Part shown: positions 12,220-26,040 of the stretch, piece by piece | How the letters are laid out: every line of letters begins with the position of its first letter | Numbering within the stretch: the stretch's first letter is position 1 | Source: a virus | Length of the DNA stretch: 27,753 nucleotides | Direction: 5' to 3' (one strand) | IMG/VR virus record: IMGVR_UViG_3300015076_000009 | Coordinates: 1-27,753 of that record | Notes under the pieces: model-generated | Databases searched by the model: none | The model's input: only the letters and a program-made list of their open reading frames with translations | What the model was told of the DNA's origin: nothing | Position numbers and translations under genes: made by a program

Positions 12220-12381
12220 TTAGTGCACGCTCGCCAACTTCAGCGCCGCCTGCACGTCGGCAATGGGCTTGCCGTCCTTGTACATCTGCAGCGCAACAGC
12301 AGCAACGCCGATCACGCGCATACGGTTCACGTACACGGACAAGGACTGGAGACGCTGGGAAGGTTGCGGGAAGTGGGTCAT
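12220..12381 (-). CDS. Hypothetical protein, 53 aa
   Basis: This frame begins with ATG at 12381, preceded by TAGGAG at 6-7 bases. The protein is MTHFPQPSQRLQSLSVYVNR, then a helical part with VAAVALQMYKDGKPIADVQAALKL. It has its own TATAAT-type promoter (12428-12433) with an upstream TGTAAAG box, a ~45-base leader and a hairpin terminator. It is therefore a one-gene transcription unit. No family was recognised; the small helical fold suggests a host-interaction factor. Confidence 0.72.
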   Translation of the reverse strand: MTHFPQPSQRLQSLSVYVNRMRVIGVAAVALQMYKDGKPIADVQAALKLASVH

Positions 12382-12427
12382 TACGAACTCCTAGGTGCAC
12401 TGTGCGTTGCGCTGTGTGCATGTAGCA

Positions 12428-12477
12428 ATTATATGCGATGCACCTGGTTAGTAGACGCTTCGTTTGCATCTTTACAA
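12428..12477 (-). promoter_or_regulatory. Promoter with TGTAAAG box, copy 1
   Basis: On the minus strand TTGTAAAG starts at 12477 and TATAAT at 12433, 44 bases apart, with TGCATCG just before the -10 and TGCTACATGCA just after it. No TTGACA-like -35 is present, so an activator at the TGTAAAG box may replace it. It serves the 53-aa gene. Confidence 0.6.
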
Positions 12478-12498
12478 AGTAGGCAGATTATTCGAAGT

Positions 12499-12543
12499 GT
12501 GTAAAGTCGCTTGACGTAGCAGACTGTATGTGCATCGTATAAC
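12499..12543 (+). promoter_or_regulatory. Promoter-like TGTAAAG / TGCATCG-TATAAC, reading into the AT-rich region
   Basis: GTGTAAAG at 12499 and TATAAC at 12538 are 39 bases apart, with TGCATCG before the -10 as in the other copies. No gene starts downstream for over 700 bases, so a transcript from here would be a leader or a replication primer. Confidence 0.4.
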
Positions 12544-12586
12544 CACACTGATCAGCAGGTTATGCGAATTACTTGACAGATCGCAA

Positions 12587-13002
12587 ATTAACAGAATGGA
12601 GCGCAACGCGCACAATTAACCGATATTTGCAAACATTCTTACATCTGTTACATCGAGAAATATTGTACAGATTCCCGATGCATATTGTGGATGCTGTATA
12701 GTGTATAAATAGTAATAATTAACTAAATAACAAAGAAATACAGCTTGACAAAATACCTCTTTTTTTATTTTTTTACGTACATCGTGTTAATCGCATTCCT
12801 TCTGTTAATCCTCCCACATAACACAATTAACGTATTATGCGCATTTCCCAGTGCATATGCGTTTTTATTATATATAAAAATTTTCCCCTATATATAGCGC
12901 AGCGTACATATGTTAAGCGCGCTCCATAACACACCTACTTCCAATTAATAATTTTTACGCGTAAGTCCACTACTTCTTGTTAATCGCAATAGTTCTGTTA
13001 AT
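12587..13002. repeat. Array of GTTAAT/ATTAAC boxes
   Basis: Eight exact boxes occur: ATTAAC at 12587, 12615, 12718 and 12826, and GTTAAT at 12786, 12804, 12979 and 12997. Two GTTAAT pairs are each spaced 18 bp and sit within a 26-bp near-repeat (12784-12809 and 12977-13002). Two more sites lie at 11760 and 11782. The spacing suggests an iteron-like or cooperative binding array. Confidence 0.55.
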
Positions 13003-13237
13003 AGCTTTTCTTGCCTGGACAGCACAGCATTTAACGTTCTGTAAAGTGCTCACAGCTCTCCCTGATAATGTGCTAACTGCACAAAGTTGGTCTGCACGTG
13101 GAGCGCACGCAAGTAGCACAGCCGCTAGCACAATCACAAGCTTTTTGTGTCCACTTTACAAAGATGCATATTCACGCTGTGCACAGTGTGGTCATGTCGT
13201 CAAGCACTATCTGCAATAACCCTCTGATCAGGTTTAA

Positions 13238-13278
13238 TTGTAAAGCTGATCCCGCTGCTGCTTTGCGCATCGTATAAT
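13238..13278 (+). promoter_or_regulatory. Promoter with TGTAAAG box before the 60-aa membrane gene
   Basis: TTGTAAAG at 13238 and TATAAT at 13273 are 35 bases apart, with GCATCG just before the -10. Transcription would start about 13285 and give a ~20-base leader carrying AAGGAG. An AACCCTCTGA site lies just upstream (13218-13227). Confidence 0.6.
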
Positions 13279-13303
13279 TGTGCATCAACACAAGGAGTCC
13301 GCA

Positions 13304-13486
13304 ATGTCCCGTTCCGAGTACGCTGCTAATATCGATCAACAATGCGAGCAGCCGTCCCGCGCGCAAATGCAGCAAGCTGCAATGCACGATAGCGCTTACA
13401 GCAACCTGCTGTTCGCTGTCCTCGGCTTTGCTGCTACGTGCGCAGTTGCCGCGCTCTGCGTGTTTTACATCTCCCGCTTGTTTTAA
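13304..13486 (+). CDS. Small membrane protein, 60 aa
   Basis: AAGGAG precedes the ATG by 7 bases. The first ~35 residues are polar and Gln-rich (MSRSEYAANIDQQCEQPSRA). The end is one hydrophobic helix (NLLFAVLGFAATCAVAALCV) with a short aromatic tail, so it should anchor in the inner membrane with the N-terminus facing the cytoplasm or periplasm. It forms a complete single-gene unit with promoter at 13273 and terminator at 13496. It is unrecognised; early phage membrane peptides of this kind often modify host membrane proteins or block superinfection. Confidence 0.75.
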   Translation: MSRSEYAANIDQQCEQPSRAQMQQAAMHDSAYSNLLFAVLGFAATCAVAALCVFYISRLF

Positions 13487-13495
13487 AGCTTGACA

Positions 13496-13520
13496 GCCTG
13501 CCTAGTGCGGGCTTTCTTTT
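13496..13520 (+). terminator. Rho-independent terminator
   Basis: AGCCTGC, a short loop and GCGGGCT pair with one G-T wobble, followed by TTCTTTT. It closes the 60-aa membrane gene. Confidence 0.7.
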
Positions 13521-13620
13521 ACTCTGCAGAGAAGTCCGCACTCACTTCTAACGACGCCCACCCTCTGGGCCACCATCCCGAGTGTGCCTCTTCGAACGCA
13601 TGCATTAATTCTAACAGAAA

Positions 13621-13642
13621 ACTAGGCGCTTGCGCACCTAGT
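13621..13642 (-). terminator. Hairpin terminator for the leftward 81-aa gene
   Basis: ACTAGGCGC and GCACCTAGT form a 9-10 bp stem with wobble. On the minus strand it is followed by TTTTCTGTT. It lies 14 bases after the stop at 13656. Confidence 0.6.
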
Positions 13643-13655
13643 AGTTTCGCTCAGC

Positions 13656-13901
13656 TTACTGCAAGTGTATGCAGACTTCTTCCATTGCGAACTGCAACGC
13701 GATGTCCAGCGTTGCGCAGCAGAACACGAGCTGCTGTCCGGACAGCGTTTGCATCGTGCCCTCCGCGTCCGTGCGGATCACGATAAACTCTTGTCCGCTG
13801 TTGCGCATGTTCAAATCTTCGTAGACACGAACTTCCGTGCGCTCGCTGTTGTCCGTTTGTTCTGCAACGAACGTTGCGACGCGAATTTTCTCTTGCGGCA
13901 T
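13656..13901 (-). CDS. Hypothetical protein, 81 aa
   Basis: Not recognised. The ATG at 13901 has AAGGAG 5 bases upstream, which decides it over the frame start at 13955. The protein begins MPQEKIRVATFVAEQTDNSE and has a beta-rich centre (TEVRVYEDLN, EFIVIRTDAE) and a helical end with two adjacent Cys. It follows the HTH gene in the same direction after an 93-base gap and ends at its own terminator. Confidence 0.7.
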   Translation of the reverse strand: MPQEKIRVATFVAEQTDNSERTEVRVYEDLNMRNSGQEFIVIRTDAEGTMQTLSGQQLVFCCATLDIALQFAMEEVCIHLQ

Positions 13902-13994
13902 AGCTTCTCCTTGTTGTCCAGCAGAATTGCAAACACTTACACCTAGCAGATGCAAATGTTTGCAAGCAGGCTTGCGCCTACTTGCTTGTCGTAC

Positions 13995-14243
13995 TTAGTT
14001 CGTGACGACTTGCTTCTTCATGCGCGCGTTGCGGCAGCGCACGGCAGCGGGCGTGCTCGACTCGGCGCGCCAGCGGTAGAACTGCAGGCGGACCGTCGTC
14101 GGGTGCATGCCGAGCTGTTCCGCAATTGCGGGGAGGTGCTTGCTCGTGATCACGGACGTGCTTTCCTCGAACACTTCGCGGATCACGCCGCACAGCGTTG
14201 CCTTCGTGTCGTTCATGGCTTGGGTCTTGGCTTGTTCGGACAT
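13995..14243 (-). CDS. Small helix-turn-helix protein, 82 aa
   Basis: The ATG at 14243 has GGAG 6 bases upstream. The N-terminal half is helical. Residues ~35-65 read SVITSKHLPAIAEQLGMHPT followed by TVRLQFYRWRAE. This matches a helix-turn-helix in which AEQLGMHPTTVRLQFYRW would be the turn and recognition helix. The C-terminus is basic (RCRNARMKKQ). It is a candidate reader of one of the palindrome families around it. It has its own TATAGT promoter with a TGTAAAG box. Confidence 0.7.
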   Translation of the reverse strand: MSEQAKTQAMNDTKATLCGVIREVFEESTSVITSKHLPAIAEQLGMHPTTVRLQFYRWRAESSTPAAVRCRNARMKKQVVTN

Positions 14244-14306
14244 TTTAAACTCCTGCGTGCTTTGCACTTTGGGTTGCGGGGAGCGACTTGCTTTCCCGAT
14301 GTGTTA

Positions 14307-14356
14307 ACTATAACTCAGATGCGATGCGCTGTGTCAGCGTTTTTGCATCTTTACAG
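14307..14356 (-). promoter_or_regulatory. Promoter with TGTAAAG box, copy 3 (HTH gene)
   Basis: CTGTAAAG begins at 14356 and TATAGT at 14312 on the minus strand, 44 bases apart as in copy 1, with GCATCTGAGT before the -10. Confidence 0.55.
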
Positions 14357-14458
14357 AGTAACCAGAATTGCGATTTGCGTGCGCACAGCCAACAGCAGAT
14401 CAGCCCAGCCGAAGCCGGTTGCGCGGAGCGCGTGCGAAATGTGTTGGACTGTTTGCAT
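14351..14458 (-). CDS. Possible leaderless small protein, 35 aa
   Basis: A frame MQTVQHISHALRATGFGWAD, then LLLAVRTQIAILVTL, with codon choice like its neighbours, starts six bases after a TATAAT box. No Shine-Dalgarno sequence is present, so it would be a leaderless message. The second half is hydrophobic. Its stop codon overlaps the TGTAAAG box of the next promoter. It may be only the transcribed leader of the HTH gene; the coding call is tentative. Confidence 0.4.
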   Translation of the reverse strand: MQTVQHISHALRATGFGWADLLLAVRTQIAILVTL

Positions 14459-14464
14459 GTAGCA

Positions 14465-14504
14465 ATTATAAGATGCAAAACATCTTGCAGGTGCATCTTT
14501 ACAA
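14465..14504 (-). promoter_or_regulatory. Promoter with TGTAAAG box, copy 2
   Basis: TTGTAAAG begins at 14504 and TATAAT at 14470 on the minus strand, 34 bases apart, with GCATCT directly before the -10. TGCTACATGCA follows it, exactly as in copy 1. Confidence 0.6.
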
Positions 14505-14538: not shown

Positions 14539-14803
14539 AAATAGCTCAGAAAATATTTTTAGGCAAGCGATATTTTGCTGCTCTTTTGTGCTAGCGCCGA
14601 AGAAAGATGTATTGCACACCTTGCTTATAAAAGAGGCACAAGTGCTAGCACATAAAAGAGCTAAAATACACCTTGCCAAATAAATATTTTCGTGCTCGCA
14701 CCGAGTAAGACATATTCTGCAACTTGCCTAGTAATGTGGCCACACTGCTAGCACAAGTCGGGCTGAAAATATCGCTTGCGCAAACTTTATTTCTGAGCTA
14801 TTT
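14539..14803. repeat. Long interrupted inverted repeat
   Basis: Left blocks AAATAGCTCAGAAA (14539-14552) and GCAAGCGATATTTT (14563-14576) recur as exact reverse complements at 14790-14803 and 14766-14779, with the same 10-base gap. TTGTGCTAGC follows each arm at the same offset inward, so about 57 bp per arm is organised alike. The ~150-base interior has the palindrome GTGCTAGCAC (14641-14650) and two ACACCTTGC copies. No gene lies inside. Confidence 0.75.
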
Positions 14804-14939: not shown

Positions 14940-15170
14940 ATGTACGCACTCGAAACGATCAGCAAGGATGTCAAGTCCTACGCAACGGAAGCGAACGCAG
15001 TAAAGGCTGTGGTTGCTTACTTCGGCCCGCAAAACGACAACACGGATCGCCACTGCAACATCCTGATCGTGTGCAACGCGCAAGGGCGCTTTGTCCCGAT
15101 GTGCATCAACATTCGCCCAGGTCCGTCGTTCAGCGTGTGCCTCAACAGCGGCTTTTTCTGCGCGAACTAA
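14940..15170 (+). CDS. Hypothetical protein, 76 aa
   Basis: AAGGAG lies 6 bases before the ATG at 14940. The protein MYALETISKDVKSYATEANA has a helical N-terminal half and a beta-like second half with four Cys (HCNILIVCNAQGRFVPMCIN). It has no signal peptide and no known motif. It is preceded by the inverted-repeat region and followed by a CGGGT/ACCCG hairpin. An upstream in-frame extension to 14724 has no ribosome site. Confidence 0.7.
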   Translation: MYALETISKDVKSYATEANAVKAVVAYFGPQNDNTDRHCNILIVCNAQGRFVPMCINIRPGPSFSVCLNSGFFCAN

Positions 15171-15199: not shown

Positions 15200-15257
15200 G
15201 TGCAAATTATAGTGCGTGCTCTAGGCGCGTGCTCTACGCGCGTGCTATAATTTGCAC
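15200..15257. repeat. 13-bp inverted repeat enclosing a triple 13-bp direct repeat, with TATAAT promoter
   Basis: GTGCAAATTATAG (15200-15212) and CTATAATTTGCAC (15245-15257) are perfect inverted copies. Between them GCGTGCTCTA-type units repeat three times with a 13-base period, the last one merging into TGCTATAAT. Each arm contains a TATAAT, one on each strand. The rightward extended -10 serves the gene at 15275. Confidence 0.7.
15246..15251 (+). promoter_or_regulatory. Extended -10 promoter for the 61-aa gene
   Basis: TGCTATAAT followed by TTGCACATCAAC and then AGGAG. The early transcribed sequence resembles that after the 13273 promoter (TGTGCATCAACAC). Confidence 0.6.
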
Positions 15258-15274: not shown

Positions 15275-15460
15275 ATGCCCAATGTCCTTACCGTGTCCGC
15301 TTTCGCGCATTTCGTAGCGATCACTCTGCAAAACGACAAAACGCATAACGTCGAGCTGCTCGGACTAATTGCGGATATGGAGGAAACCGCTCGGGACATG
15401 GATAACCCGCTGTTGGCGCAAGCTGCGCGTTTGCTTGCGCAAGCCGAACAAGAGCTATAA
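15275..15460 (+). CDS. Hypothetical helical protein, 61 aa
   Basis: AGGAG lies 5 bases before the ATG. The protein MPNVLTVSAFAHFVAITLQN continues as an acidic helical region (IADMEETARDMDNPLLAQAA, RLLAQAEQEL). It is probably a small helical bundle or coiled pair. It is a single-gene unit with its own promoter and paired hairpins downstream. No family was recognised. Confidence 0.72.
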   Translation: MPNVLTVSAFAHFVAITLQNDKTHNVELLGLIADMEETARDMDNPLLAQAARLLAQAEQEL

Positions 15461-16335: not shown

Positions 16336-16375
16336 TGTTGGTAAGCGCTCACGAGCCCGGTTCCGACCTATAAAG

Positions 16376-16464
16376 AAGCATGCTTTTTCAAAAACGTCTG
16401 GATTCGTTTTTGCCTAGTTTTGGAGAAGCATGCTTTTTCTTCCCCGCAACAAAGAAGCATGCTT
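16376..16464. repeat. AAGCATGCTT cluster 1 (three copies)
   Basis: Copies at 16376-16385, 16426-16435 and 16455-16464, the last extended to AAAGAAGCATGCTTCTTT. A 26-bp sequence (16397-16422) between copies 1 and 2 recurs at 16849-16874 with one mismatch. The last copy is 19 bases before the ATG at 16484. Confidence 0.75.
16397..16422 (+). repeat. 26-bp direct repeat, copy A
   Basis: TCTGGATTCGTTTTTGCCTA and six more bases. Copy B at 16849-16874 differs only at one position. Both precede small genes with the AAGCATGCTT operators, as if the control region had been duplicated. Confidence 0.7.
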
Positions 16465-16483
16465 CTTTTATCTAGGAGTTGAT

Positions 16484-16699
16484 ATGACAATTCGTACTGG
16501 AACTGTTGCCGTCCCGTTCTTCTGCGGAACGCGAAACGAGTTCGATCCTGTGCTGCACTGCAACATTCAGAAGCGCGCATACTGGACAGTTGGCACCGAC
16601 GTGCACGTCCTGGAATCCCGTCCTGGACAGATCTATATCGAACTGCCCAACGGAACGAAAGCCTGGGTCGGTTTGTCGCGGGTGCACTTGAACGACTGA
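16484..16699 (+). CDS. Hypothetical small beta protein, 71 aa
   Basis: TAGGAGTTGATATG gives a clear ribosome site. The protein MTIRTGTVAVPFFCGTRNEF is beta-rich and contains WTVGTDVHVLESRPGQIYIE, then LPNGTKAWVGLSRV. That alternation resembles an SH3-like barrel, although no family was matched. It is expressed from the region controlled by AAGCATGCTT cluster 1. Confidence 0.72.
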   Translation: MTIRTGTVAVPFFCGTRNEFDPVLHCNIQKRAYWTVGTDVHVLESRPGQIYIELPNGTKAWVGLSRVHLND

Positions 16700-16722
16700 T
16701 CTATATCAGCGAACTTGCTGAA

Positions 16723-16803
16723 GTGAGCACTCACGAACGAGCGCAGGTTTGTTCGTGCTCACTATCCTGAGAGTTTACCCTCTAGCTGAGAACCCTCAGG
16801 ATA
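16723..16803. repeat. Palindromes after the 71-aa gene
   Basis: GTGAG-CA-CTCAC (16723-16734) is related to the GTAAGCGCTTAC palindrome. TATCCTGAG (16763-16771) and CTCAGGATA (16795-16803) form a perfect 9-bp inverted repeat enclosing ACCCTC sites at 16776 and 16791. Confidence 0.55.
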
Positions 16804-16848
16804 CTGATCAAGCATTTGGCCCGGATCCTCGGTAGATTTTGCAAAAGC

Positions 16849-16874
16849 TCTGGATTCGTTTTTACCTAGTTTTG
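16849..16874 (+). repeat. 26-bp direct repeat, copy B
   Basis: Differs from 16397-16422 at a single base (G to A at position 16). It lies 14 bases before AAGCATGCTT cluster 2. Confidence 0.7.
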
Positions 16875-16887
16875 ACTTTTGCTTGAA

Positions 16888-16948
16888 AAGCATGCTTCTT
16901 TGTTTTTGCGAAAAGCATGCTTCTTTCTGCTACAATAAAAGCATGCTT
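16888..16948. promoter_or_regulatory. Operator-promoter: AAGCATGCTT cluster 2 overlapping a TACAAT promoter
   Basis: Copies at 16888-16897, 16913-16922 and 16939-16948 are spaced 25 and 26 bp. A -10 box TACAAT (16931-16936) lies between the second and third copies. The second copy fills the -35/-10 spacer and the third covers the start point. This is the layout of a three-site repressor-controlled promoter. The gene at 16964 follows after a GGAC ribosome site. Confidence 0.7.
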
Positions 16949-16963
16949 TGAAAGGACTTTGAT

Positions 16964-17233
16964 ATGACGAATTCTACAACGCTTGCCATCTTCGACGGAC
17001 GATACGTGGTTTCTGCAACCGGTGAGGACTACGAAGCGTCTGACCATAGTGTCGGACTGCAAGGCGGCTTCACATCGTTCGTGCTGAACAGCGCCTTCAA
17101 TGGCGTCACCAAGGAAGACTTAACCGAAGAGCAGTTGCGCGAGATCAATATTCGAATCGACAATAGCTCGTTCGAGACGGAGCGCATCCTCGAAGCGCTG
17201 GACGCTGCATACGATCCGGGTTGCGACGACTGA
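16964..17233 (+). CDS. Hypothetical acidic protein, 89 aa
   Basis: AAGGACTTTGATATG precedes the start, the same leader form as the three genes before. The protein MTNSTTLAIFDGRYVVSATG is acidic and ends with a helical segment (TEEQLREINIRIDNSSFETE) and CDD. It is unrecognised. Three operators overlap its promoter, so tight control is expected. Confidence 0.73.
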   Translation: MTNSTTLAIFDGRYVVSATGEDYEASDHSVGLQGGFTSFVLNSAFNGVTKEDLTEEQLREINIRIDNSSFETERILEALDAAYDPGCDD

Positions 17234-17380
17234 CCTTGCGTTACACTGCAACTCCTGCGGCCTGCATGTGGCTAGCGAGTGCACACCAACCTTGGATGAT
17301 CAAGTGCCTGAATCAGATCGACCCTTGCCTATCAGTTTCTGGTCCCAACCTGTCCCTGCAGCGACAGCGGACCAGGATAA

Positions 17381-17418
17381 AAGCATGCTTCTTTCTGCAG
17401 AGGAAGAAAAGCATGCTT
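17381..17418. repeat. AAGCATGCTT cluster 3 (two copies)
   Basis: Copies at 17381-17390 and 17409-17418. The 20 bases from 17379 are identical to those at 16911-16930 in cluster 2, so part of the operator-promoter was copied. The first copy contains the ATG proposed for the next gene. Confidence 0.7.
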
Positions 17419-17909
17419 CTGATCTGAATCTTAACGATTGGATGCCGAGCTTCGATTCCAAGGGTTTGACACGCGCCGACGTGCAAGCGCTGTACGGAAC
17501 GTTCAGCCAGCAGATGGGTCAAGAGCTTCGCACGTACGAACAGATCTATCAGCATGTCTGCATGGTTCAGATTGCTATGCAGAAGCAACCGCAAGCAAAT
17601 ATCGATCCGGTTTGGGTTGCGCAGCACGATGCATTCACACCGAAAATTTTTGTTGGGGAAGACCCGGCAAGCGCTTCCGCAGCGGACGCTATGGAAGCGC
17701 AGGACAACGCACACGCACAGCAGGCAAGCGCTTTGCCGCGTGCTCAACTCCACGATATCGCAGAGGCTGCGCGCCTATCCTGGAAGGATGCTGTCGAGCA
17801 ACGCCGAAAAGCTGTATCAGACTGGGATGAATACGTCCGCATGAAGCATGCGGACTACGATCAAGCAAAAGCCAACCTGAAGGCTTTTCGAAAGCATGCT
17901 TCTACGTAG
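17385..17909 (+). CDS. Hypothetical protein, 174 aa, start codon inside an operator
   Basis: The frame is open from a GTG at 17268 without a ribosome site. AGGA lies 7 bases before the ATG at 17385, which is chosen. The protein is helical, with DWMPSFDSKGLTRADVQALY, an Ala/Gln-rich middle and a basic helical end (EQRRKAVSDWDEYVRMKHAD, YDQAKANLKAF). No domain was recognised. Four AAGCATGCTT copies lie in or touching the frame: two at the start, and one at the end encoding KHAS plus one just after. If the longer start is real, cluster 3 lies within the coding sequence. Confidence 0.65.
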   Translation: MLLSAEEEKHASDLNLNDWMPSFDSKGLTRADVQALYGTFSQQMGQELRTYEQIYQHVCMVQIAMQKQPQANIDPVWVAQHDAFTPKIFVGEDPASASAADAMEAQDNAHAQQASALPRAQLHDIAEAARLSWKDAVEQRRKAVSDWDEYVRMKHADYDQAKANLKAFRKHAST

Positions 17910-18019: not shown

Positions 18020-18256
18020 ATGAGTTCAACAACTGCCCAGGACCGTTTTAACGAGAAGTATGTCTCGTCGCGGGAGATCCTGAAGCGCCTGAAGGTGACG
18101 CGCCCCACGATCAGCAAAGCTCGAACACGGGGATTGCTGCCTGATCCTATTGTCATTCACGATACGCTGATCTTCCTGTGGGAACGGGAAGTGGTGGAGC
18201 CATACATCGCGGCGTGGGAACTCCTGCTCAATGCGAAGCGTGCACACAAGCAATGA
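18020..18256 (+). CDS. Helix-turn-helix DNA-binding protein, 78 aa
   Basis: GGAAG lies 5 bases before the ATG. The region YVSSREILKRLKVTRPTISK, then ARTRGLLPDP, is a winged-helix or MerR/excisionase-like HTH: helix SSREILKRL, turn, and recognition helix TRPTISKARTRG. The rest is an alpha-helical tail (ILWE...YIAAWELLLNAKR). Its stop overlaps the primase start as ATGA. It could repress this operon, load the primase at the origin, or read the AAGCATGCTT sites just upstream; sequence alone cannot say which. Confidence 0.78.
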   Translation: MSSTTAQDRFNEKYVSSREILKRLKVTRPTISKARTRGLLPDPIVIHDTLIFLWEREVVEPYIAAWELLLNAKRAHKQ

Positions 18257-20652
18257 ATCAACTGCCGCGTTGGGGCGAAATCCCCGAGGAAATGCGTCAG
18301 CGTCGGCAATGGTTGCTTGCCGCTCCTGACGCCCACGGACAATTGAAGGTCCCTTCCCGCATGTCTGACGGACGTGTGGTTAAGACGGACAACACCGATT
18401 CCGAAACGTGGATGACCTTCGACGAAGCTGCATCTACCGCCTATCAAAACGGCATGGGGATCGGCTATTGTATCCACTATACAGATCCATACGTGTGTAT
18501 CGATCTGGATGTGAAGGGTGATCACAATGAGCCTGATCCTTCTAAGTGGACCACTCAGCAGCAGATCGACCGCTACTGGTTCATGGTACAAGCGTTCGAC
18601 TCGTATACTGAACTGTCGCAGTCAGGCAAGGGCTTGCACATCTGGGTTCGTGGGGTCACTAAGGACGGTGCGAGACACGACGGCGTTGAACTCTATGCTG
18701 AGTCGCGTTTCATGGTGTGCACTGGTGCACAACTGTTCGCGGGTAAAGAAATTCAAGAGCGTCAAGCGCTCGTAAATATTCTTTACGACGAAATTCGTGA
18801 ACACCAGGCAGCGAAGCAAAAGTTCGCTGACCTCGAGGAACGCGAAGAGACCGAAACAGACGAACAGATCCTCGAGCGTGCGCGCAATGCGGACAACGCT
18901 GCAAAGTTCATCGAGCTCTACGAAGGTCGCTGGGAGCAATATAACTTCCCTTCGAACTCCGAAGCTGATCTCGCACTCATGTCGATCTTCACCTTCTATA
19001 GCCGTGCAGACGAGCAGTGCCGTAGACTGTTCCGTGGTTCGAAGTTGGGCACACGCGAGAAGTACGCACCTGACAAGGATTACCACATCAACCGCTTGCT
19101 CGGCTTGATTCGTGGGCGTCAAGCTGCTGAAGATGCGCGCGATGCAAAGTTCGCGGAGCAAGGCGCAGACATGGCGAAGCGTATCTCTGAAGAAGCTGCA
19201 CTGAAAGCGTATGCAGCATCGTTGGGGGCGCCTGAACTGAATAGCGCTGGGGCTGGTCTCCCTCCCGCCCCTGTACAGGAACTGCCCGCCCCGCCCGCTG
19301 TAGGAAGCGAAGCTTCTATCCAGTGGCCTCCAGGCTTTGCCGGTGCCCTTGCAGGCTTCGTCTACGACTCGGCGCCGCGTCCGGTCAAGGAAGTTGCTAT
19401 CGTTGCAGCACTAGGCTGGCTCGCTGGTGTGTGCGGCAAGATGTGGAATATCCCCGGTTCTGGTCTGAATATCTACCTTATCCTGGTTGCACGTAGCGCA
19501 GTCGGCAAGGAAGCGATGCACAGCGGTCTAGGCGCATTGCTGGCTAAGCTGCGCGAAGCTATCCCGTCCGCACAGGACTTCGTGGACTTCAACGATTACG
19601 CTTCCGGCCCTGCACTTGTCAAAGCATGCGCAGTCAATCAATCCTTTGTAAATGTGGCGGGCGAATGGGGCAAGAAACTGAAACGCCTGTCGATGGACGG
19701 GGACAAGGACGGTCCGATGCAGCAATTGCGGACCGTGATGACCAATCTGTATCAGAAGAGCGGTCCTGCATCGGTCGTTGGCGGTCTTACGTATTCGGAC
19801 AAGGAGAAGAACATCGGTTCTGTTTCGGGTGTCGCGTACAGTATGATCGGGGAGACAACGCCCGGAACATTCTACGACTCGTTGACTGAAGGAATGATGG
19901 AAGACGGTTTCCTGTCACGCTTCACGATCGTGGAGTATACAGGAGAGCGTCCGCCTGCGAACTATCAGCCCGTCAAGGAACCGCCTACACCAATCGTCGA
20001 ACAGTGCATCCAGATTATGATGCACCAGAAAACATTGTTCGGCAACCGTACCCCTCCTGTTCAGGTGTTGCGAACTGCTGAAGCTGGCGAAATGATGCTA
20101 GCGTTCGACAAGGAGTGTGACGCAGAGATCAATAAGACGACAGACGAGTCCTGGCGTCAGATGTGGAACCGCGCCGCGCTCAAGATGATGCGCATAGCTG
20201 CGCTTCTGGCTGTAGGTGACAATCCGTTCCAGCCTGTGGTCACAGTCGAACAAGTCAAGTGGGCTTTGGACCTCATTCGTCGCGATATCGCCATTATGCG
20301 CCGGCGTGTTGAGTCCGGTGATATCGGCAATGGCGACGGTGTGCGGGAACGCAAGATTATCTTCATCACGAAGAAGTTCTTCGAAGAGGAACCGGGCCCG
20401 GGTTACAAAATTCCTGCGGGCATGCGCGGCAAGGGTGTCATCCCTCGTTCCTATCTGCAGATCCGTACATCCAGGCTGGCTCCGTTCATGAATGCACGCA
20501 ATGGGGCGACGAAAGCCCTTGACGAAGCCATCCGATCCTGTGTCGATTCTGGTTACCTTGTGGAAGTCGACAAGGCAAAGCTCGCTGAAGAATATGGCGC
20601 AGCGGGTAAGGCATATCGTGTGATCTCACTTCCGAACTATAATGTTGAATAG
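18253..20652 (+). CDS. Primase-polymerase / DUF3987 replication protein, 799 aa
   Basis: The start at 18253 is coupled to the HTH gene (ATGA). The N-terminal ~200 residues resemble the PrimPol domain of NrS-1-type phage polymerases: VCIDLDVKGD gives the metal-binding pair Asp84/Asp86, and SYTELSQSGKGLHIWVRG gives the SGxGxH motif with His129. After a charged helical linker and a Pro/Ala hinge, the C-terminal half is DUF3987, a P-loop module of phage and plasmid replication proteins. Its Walker A is ARSAVGKEAM with Lys419; the usual Ser/Thr is Glu. FVNVAGEWGKKLK may be the following acidic motif. It should prime and perhaps unwind phage DNA. It is the replication core of the window. Confidence 0.88.
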   Translation: MNQLPRWGEIPEEMRQRRQWLLAAPDAHGQLKVPSRMSDGRVVKTDNTDSETWMTFDEAASTAYQNGMGIGYCIHYTDPYVCIDLDVKGDHNEPDPSKWTTQQQIDRYWFMVQAFDSYTELSQSGKGLHIWVRGVTKDGARHDGVELYAESRFMVCTGAQLFAGKEIQERQALVNILYDEIREHQAAKQKFADLEEREETETDEQILERARNADNAAKFIELYEGRWEQYNFPSNSEADLALMSIFTFYSRADEQCRRLFRGSKLGTREKYAPDKDYHINRLLGLIRGRQAAEDARDAKFAEQGADMAKRISEEAALKAYAASLGAPELNSAGAGLPPAPVQELPAPPAVGSEASIQWPPGFAGALAGFVYDSAPRPVKEVAIVAALGWLAGVCGKMWNIPGSGLNIYLILVARSAVGKEAMHSGLGALLAKLREAIPSAQDFVDFNDYASGPALVKACAVNQSFVNVAGEWGKKLKRLSMDGDKDGPMQQLRTVMTNLYQKSGPASVVGGLTYSDKEKNIGSVSGVAYSMIGETTPGTFYDSLTEGMMEDGFLSRFTIVEYTGERPPANYQPVKEPPTPIVEQCIQIMMHQKTLFGNRTPPVQVLRTAEAGEMMLAFDKECDAEINKTTDESWRQMWNRAALKMMRIAALLAVGDNPFQPVVTVEQVKWALDLIRRDIAIMRRRVESGDIGNGDGVRERKIIFITKKFFEEEPGPGYKIPAGMRGKGVIPRSYLQIRTSRLAPFMNARNGATKALDEAIRSCVDSGYLVEVDKAKLAEEYGAAGKAYRVISLPNYNVE

Positions 20653-25953: not shown

Positions 25954-26040
25954 CGCCGTATAGCTCAGACTGGTAGAGTCACCGTTCTGCCCGTGCACGG
26001 GTTCCGGAGGTCGTTGGTTCAAATCCAACTACGGCGACCA
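25954..26040 (+). tRNA. tRNA-like RNA with a palindrome in the anticodon arm
   Basis: Acceptor CGCCGTA/TACGGCG with ACCA, D arm GCTC-AGACTGGTA-GAGT, variable AGGTC and T arm GTTGG-TTCAAAT-CCAAC are normal. The anticodon arm is not: CCG and CGG enclose TTCTG, a perfect 12-bp palindrome CCCGTGCACGGG (25990-26001) and TTC. Removing the 12 bases gives near-normal tRNA length (75 with CCA). The isotype cannot be assigned. Confidence 0.65.

Follow-up and report, generated by a model that had tools for sequence, protein, structure and literature searches.

The window, a fragmentary 27.7-kb viral record analysed over its full 27,753 nucleotides (IMGVR_UViG_3300015076_000009), contains, in its early region, a cluster of TGTAAAG boxes that are linked to -10 hexamers beyond chance. 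These elements most likely represent sigma70 promoters that depend on an activator, form a set peculiar to this phage, and would work in the manner of Mu Mor or T4 MotA promoters. We propose, with slightly less than even confidence, that the boxes are sites for a sequence-specific protein that turns on this small promoter set.

The TGTAAAG motif is real. The window has eight copies where chance predicts 2.17, and none of 100 shuffles reached eight; seven of these copies fall within 2.0 kb (12470-14503). In strictly intergenic window DNA, it is the top enriched 7-mer (7 vs 0.25 expected). Five of the seven regional copies have a match of at least 5/6 to TATAAT 30-46 nt downstream on the same strand (background 8.9% per position), and three have an exact TATAAT in that range (background 1.6%); a binomial estimate from those rates gives P ~1e-4 for each count. 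The five promoters (A-E), the two further copies (F and G), and the genes behind them are as follows.

12470-12476, minus strand: promoter A box TGTAAAG, within the full TGTAAAGATGCA site at 12465-12476
12428-12433, minus strand: promoter A -10, TATAAT, 43 nt from the box start, with GCATC 8 nt upstream
12220-12381: promoter A target, a 53-aa ORF with an AGGAG site
12500-12506, plus strand: promoter E box TGTAAAG, divergent from A, forming a CTTTACA-N23-TGTAAAG pair
12538-12543, plus strand: promoter E -10, TATAAC, 38 nt from the box start
13040-13046, plus strand: copy F, TGTAAAG, with GATAAT 24 nt downstream and the box near the -35 position
13154-13160, minus strand: copy G, TGTAAAG, with no -10-like hexamer in range
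13239-13245, plus strand: promoter D box TGTAAAG
13273-13278, plus strand: promoter D -10, TATAAT, 34 nt from the box start
13304-13486: promoter D target, a 60-aa ORF with an AGGAG site
14349-14355, minus strand: promoter B box TGTAAAG, full site 14344-14355
14307-14312, minus strand: promoter B -10, TATAGT, 43 nt from the box start
14497-14503, minus strand: promoter C box TGTAAAG, full site 14492-14503
14465-14470, minus strand: promoter C -10, TATAAT, 33 nt from the box start; C lies in tandem upstream of B
13995-14243, minus strand: helix-turn-helix (HTH) protein gene, candidate regulator, behind promoters B and C, with its ATG at 14243 and an AGGAG site

The first-pass annotation had found five of these copies but had missed those at 13040 (+) and 13154-13160 (-). 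It placed each box one base early, so its box-to-(-10) distances of 44 (A), 44 (B), 34 (C), 35 (D), and 39 (E) were one too large, the start-to-start values being 43, 43, 33, 34, and 38. The TATAAT that it described as shared is exact in A, C, and D but altered in B and E, and the GCATC that it noted is indeed present 6-15 nt upstream of the -10 in all five promoters. A constant TGTAAAG-to-GCATC spacing was considered and rejected: at 27, 28, 28, 32, and 35, it is no tighter than the spacing to the -10. Between the box end and the -10 lie 26, 27, 31, 36, and 36 bp.

The box region sits in low-GC DNA, where the leftward and rightward gene arms meet; the Nipunavirus-like phage MMDA13 likewise has a low-GC divergent region between two gene arms (PMC7472734). 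Judged from its genes, the window phage is itself Nipunavirus-like. It has the Nipunavirus-type replication gene order and homologues, its primase (18178-20652) is ~50% identical to the primases of the Pseudomonas phages PaMx25, NP1, and relatives, and it has homologues of thyX, ligase, and a small HTH protein in common with PaMx25, which is classified in Queuovirinae, Nipunavirus. A closer sister is found in IMG/VR, contig L002, whose primase is 66% identical. The box-region DNA found no match in the phage collection, nor did 12390-12600 among plasmids, and a riboswitch and known-RNA search of the window returned tRNAs only. A tRNA-like gene at 25954-26040, with an odd two-base anticodon call, adjoins tRNA-Thr.

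The -35 regions of the five promoters are poor. In A, C, and D, the best -35 hexamer at 16-18 nt spacing matches 3/6 positions or fewer, which agrees with the earlier statement that the promoters lack a -35. That statement fails for B, where a -35-like CTGACA is present, though at a spacing of 19 nt; the corresponding TTGACG of E is likewise off, with 21 nt. None of the five carries the TTGACA-like -35 at 16-18 nt of an ordinary consensus sigma70 promoter, a plain sigma70 consensus scan listed none of them, and none has an extended -10 (TGn before the -10). Promoters that share a box and a good -10 but whose -35 is absent or at the wrong distance look activator-dependent, a kind already known in phages. 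In the mechanism that we propose, host sigma70 RNA polymerase would contact the -10 (TATAAT or close), and a bound protein would stand in for a -35 contact that is missing or poorly spaced. Counted back from the -10, with its first base set to -12, the box of C centres at -42, that of D at -43, that of E at -47, and those of A and B at -52, and it is there that the protein would sit. The corresponding box extents are -45 to -39, -46 to -40, -50 to -44, and -55 to -49.

These positions also bear on an improbable alternative, in which the alpha-CTDs of RNA polymerase contact TGTAAAG directly, like an UP element, and no extra factor takes part. The alpha-CTDs occupy a proximal position at -46 to -38 and a distal one at -57 to -47, and boxes C, D, A, and B fall in these two positions, one turn apart. 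Box E, at -50 to -44, fits neither, and a strictly repeated 7-mer with G and C in it, extended to a 12-mer in A-C, exceeds the A-tracts of UP elements in specificity.

Promoters A, B, and C share 27-31 nt repeats, and their alignment shows diverged duplicates in which TGTAAAGATGCA is preserved, a kinship absent from the first-pass annotation. For A-C, TGTAAAGATGCA is therefore the better description of the site, TGTAAAG being the part of it common to all copies. In the A-C boxes, TGTAAA is followed by GATGCA, which the D and E boxes lack. A and C are identical at 24 of 28 positions in the box region and at 26 of 30 from the -10 to +24, and their linkers resemble each other no better than shuffled sequence does (0.35 of shuffles at or above). 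The A linker is exactly 10 bp longer than the C linker. Conserved islands on either side of a randomised linker that differs by 10 bp are the strongest hint that the box and the -10 lie on a fixed helical face, although this pair represents one event.

The broader claim that the boxes keep the same helical face is weak. The A/C difference of 10 bp favours it, and with four chosen copies, E being left out, the phasing appears significant (R=0.93-0.96, P ~0.01). Promoter E is about half a helical turn off, and phasing over all five promoters is not significant (P=0.22-0.23); counting A and B as one raises P to 0.46-0.49. Since A-C are duplicates, there are few independent cases.

The duplication also raises the possibility of shared ancestry with no shared regulator, A-C being recent duplicates and D and E chance matches around ordinary -10s in AT-rich DNA. 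The repeats among A, B, and C and the lack of the exact box in relatives are consistent with this explanation. We nevertheless judge it improbable, because the box of A and C has been kept beside a randomised linker, the 7-mer persists in D, E, F, and G although nothing around it is similar, and the enrichment holds against shuffles.

The genes behind the promoters support the activator reading: A and D lead via their AGGAG sites into short ORFs, and B and C lead into the HTH gene. The HTH protein is a candidate regulator encoded in the window, to which the first-pass annotation had not pointed, and B and C would then place its gene under its own control. The gene, listed as a 90-aa ORF from 14267, yields 82 aa from the ATG at 14243. 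The structure model contains a confident helix pair (42-52 and 56-69, pLDDT ~90). The protein is conserved in L002 (58% over the alignment), its only match among the viral contigs; a sequence search of genomes gave no match, and the Nipunavirus proteins gave weak 27% matches. No significant family was found in Pfam, NCBIfam, or PHROGs, the sub-threshold Pfam hits being homeodomain-like and sigma region 4, and the PDB returned weak HTH-type fold matches only, with E above 1. Judged by its position only, the 82-aa protein is the likeliest phage-encoded candidate for binding the box.

A near-perfect hairpin with 18-nt arms and a 3-nt loop (13927-13965) lies between the HTH gene and the next minus-strand ORF. 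A 38-nt inverted repeat (84%, 189 nt apart) occupies non-coding DNA at 14539-14803, between promoter C and the ORF at 14940-15170. At 15200-15257, a 20-nt inverted repeat with TATAAT on both strands and repeated GCGTGCTCTA units precedes the ORF at 15275-15460 and may be read as another promoter type of the window phage. Repeats of the AAAAAGCATGCTT type, possible operator or iteron elements, lie upstream of a conserved 78-aa small HTH gene and the primase, at ~16370-17460 in the window and ~4560-4740 in L002.

The lack of the exact box in relatives weighs against the activator reading. Among 18 loci with the primase, the window included, only the window contains the TGTAAAG cluster, and no similar cluster appeared in the other viral contigs searched. 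As far as these sequences indicate, the exact box is confined to the window phage. L002 has a single TGTAAAG, whose place upstream of its homologue of the HTH gene speaks for that reading. GATGCA is enriched in both the window and L002, and in L002 no 7-mer ranks above CGATGCA. The small-gene promoters of L002 carry (T/C)TCGATGCAAA-CATC ~23 nt before the -10, a geometry that differs from that of the window and puts the GATGCA core between the -35 and the -10. Searches for the box elsewhere were also discarded. Two gapped box patterns matched more than 140 loci in IMG/VR, nearly all of them in contigs of low GC that showed neither a cluster nor homology and hence chance matches, and the A-C box consensus and the 17-mer after the -10 found four unrelated loci.

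Repressor operators often lie between the -35 and the -10, and the GATGCA half-site with TGTAAA, together with GCATC by the -10, may instead mark sites at which a phage or host repressor shuts early promoters. Each -10 has GCATC a short way upstream, which reads as GATGC on the opposite strand and so matches the A-C boxes, L002 has a GATGC-AAA-GCATC palindrome between the -35 and the -10, and on this view B and C would let the HTH protein repress its own gene. We regard repression as unlikely, if less so than the other alternatives: with no -35, A, C, and D would be weak from the outset, the boxes of D and E lack GATGCA, and those of A and B lie well upstream of the -35 position.

Promoter E leads into AT-rich DNA with no obvious gene. 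In L002, position 1093 has GCATC directly before TATAAC, the same place as in promoter E, without TGTAAAG, and this counterpart also enters AT-rich DNA without a clear gene. Both (window 12538-13000; L002 ~1093) may give rise to an untranslated or origin transcript. TGTTAAT repeats, possible origin repeats, occur in the low-GC DNA upstream of the primase in the window (12570-13010, 5 copies, 0.4 expected), in L002 (801-1700, 5, 0.2 expected), and in three other relatives, namely L018 (3001-3900, 9, 0.2), L015 (2301-3200, 4, 0.2), and PaMx25 (L004, 8362-9261, 3, 0.0). The corresponding region of MMDA13 has four copies of a TGCGTTAACCAT-like repeat (PMC7472734). The TGTAAAG copies flank the AT-rich stretch 12600-13000, which holds TGTTAAT repeats, and could be conceived as replication-initiator boxes bordering an origin, their proximity to promoters being incidental. 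This is highly improbable, as five of the seven copies lie at promoter-like distances from -10s, B and C precede a gene at a distance of 1.4 kb, and the repeat conserved in relatives is TGTTAAT, not TGTAAAG.

We retain as the preferred reading an activator that replaces the -35 contact, on the strength of the linkage to -10s, the poor -35s, the A/C islands, and the genes behind the promoters. This part of the first-pass annotation is sustained by the shared box, the poor -35s, and the A/C pattern; it is weakened by the phasing, by E, and by the non-independence of A-C, and the sequence is mute on activation, repression, and alpha-CTD contact. Binding, activation as opposed to repression, the regulator's identity, and the start sites are what we infer. 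Should the box prove to bind an activator, the window offers a defined promoter set with an 82-residue candidate regulator, and its natural 10-bp spacing variants, A versus C, would allow a direct test of how far an activator may shift while replacing the -35 contact. A bolder and rather doubtful extension is that the 82-aa protein and its L002 homologue belong to an undescribed family of very small HTH activators that act at -35-less sigma70 promoters through a single half-site-like box, tolerate one-turn steps in spacing, and have boxes that diverge fast between sister phages. No description of this promoter set or its candidate protein was found in open-access papers. The open-access literature on transcription control in Nipunavirus-like phages gave computational promoter predictions only, and the field appears uncharted.

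Among known systems, the late promoters of P2 and P4 are -35-less and are activated by Ogr/Delta from a site at ~-55, the Ogr site being a TGT-N12-ACA dyad. That position is near the -52 of A and B; by eye, however, A-C show no TGT-N12-ACA, and a zinc-binding Ogr differs from the HTH candidate. MMDA13 resembles the window in that its low-GC divergent region has short direct repeats and both strands carry promoters, but its repeat is the 12-bp TGCGTTAACCAT-like element rather than TGTAAAG, and its promoters are Bprom predictions only (PMC7472734). The T4 MotA/AsiA middle promoters likewise combine an excellent -10 with a short box, further upstream, that takes the place of the -35. The MotA box (TGCTTtA) lies 12 ± 1 bp from the -10 (PMC2988021), whereas the window boxes are separated from it by a variable 26-36 bp. 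At the Mu middle promoter Pm, the Mor activator works with sigma70 polymerase from a site centred near -43.5 and binds two 5-bp inverted repeats within a 16-bp element (PMC4390567). As inferred from the -10, boxes C and D centre near -42/-43, close to the Mor site, whereas E (-47) and A and B (-52) are off that centre, A and B lying one turn further out. A by-eye comparison of the seven boxes found no dyad kept in all, with a weak one in A only. In a scan of selected window proteins, the 82/90-aa candidate had no Mor match and no significant Pfam or NCBIfam family. Overall, the box centres fall where class II-type and Mor-type activators act and outside the MotA range.
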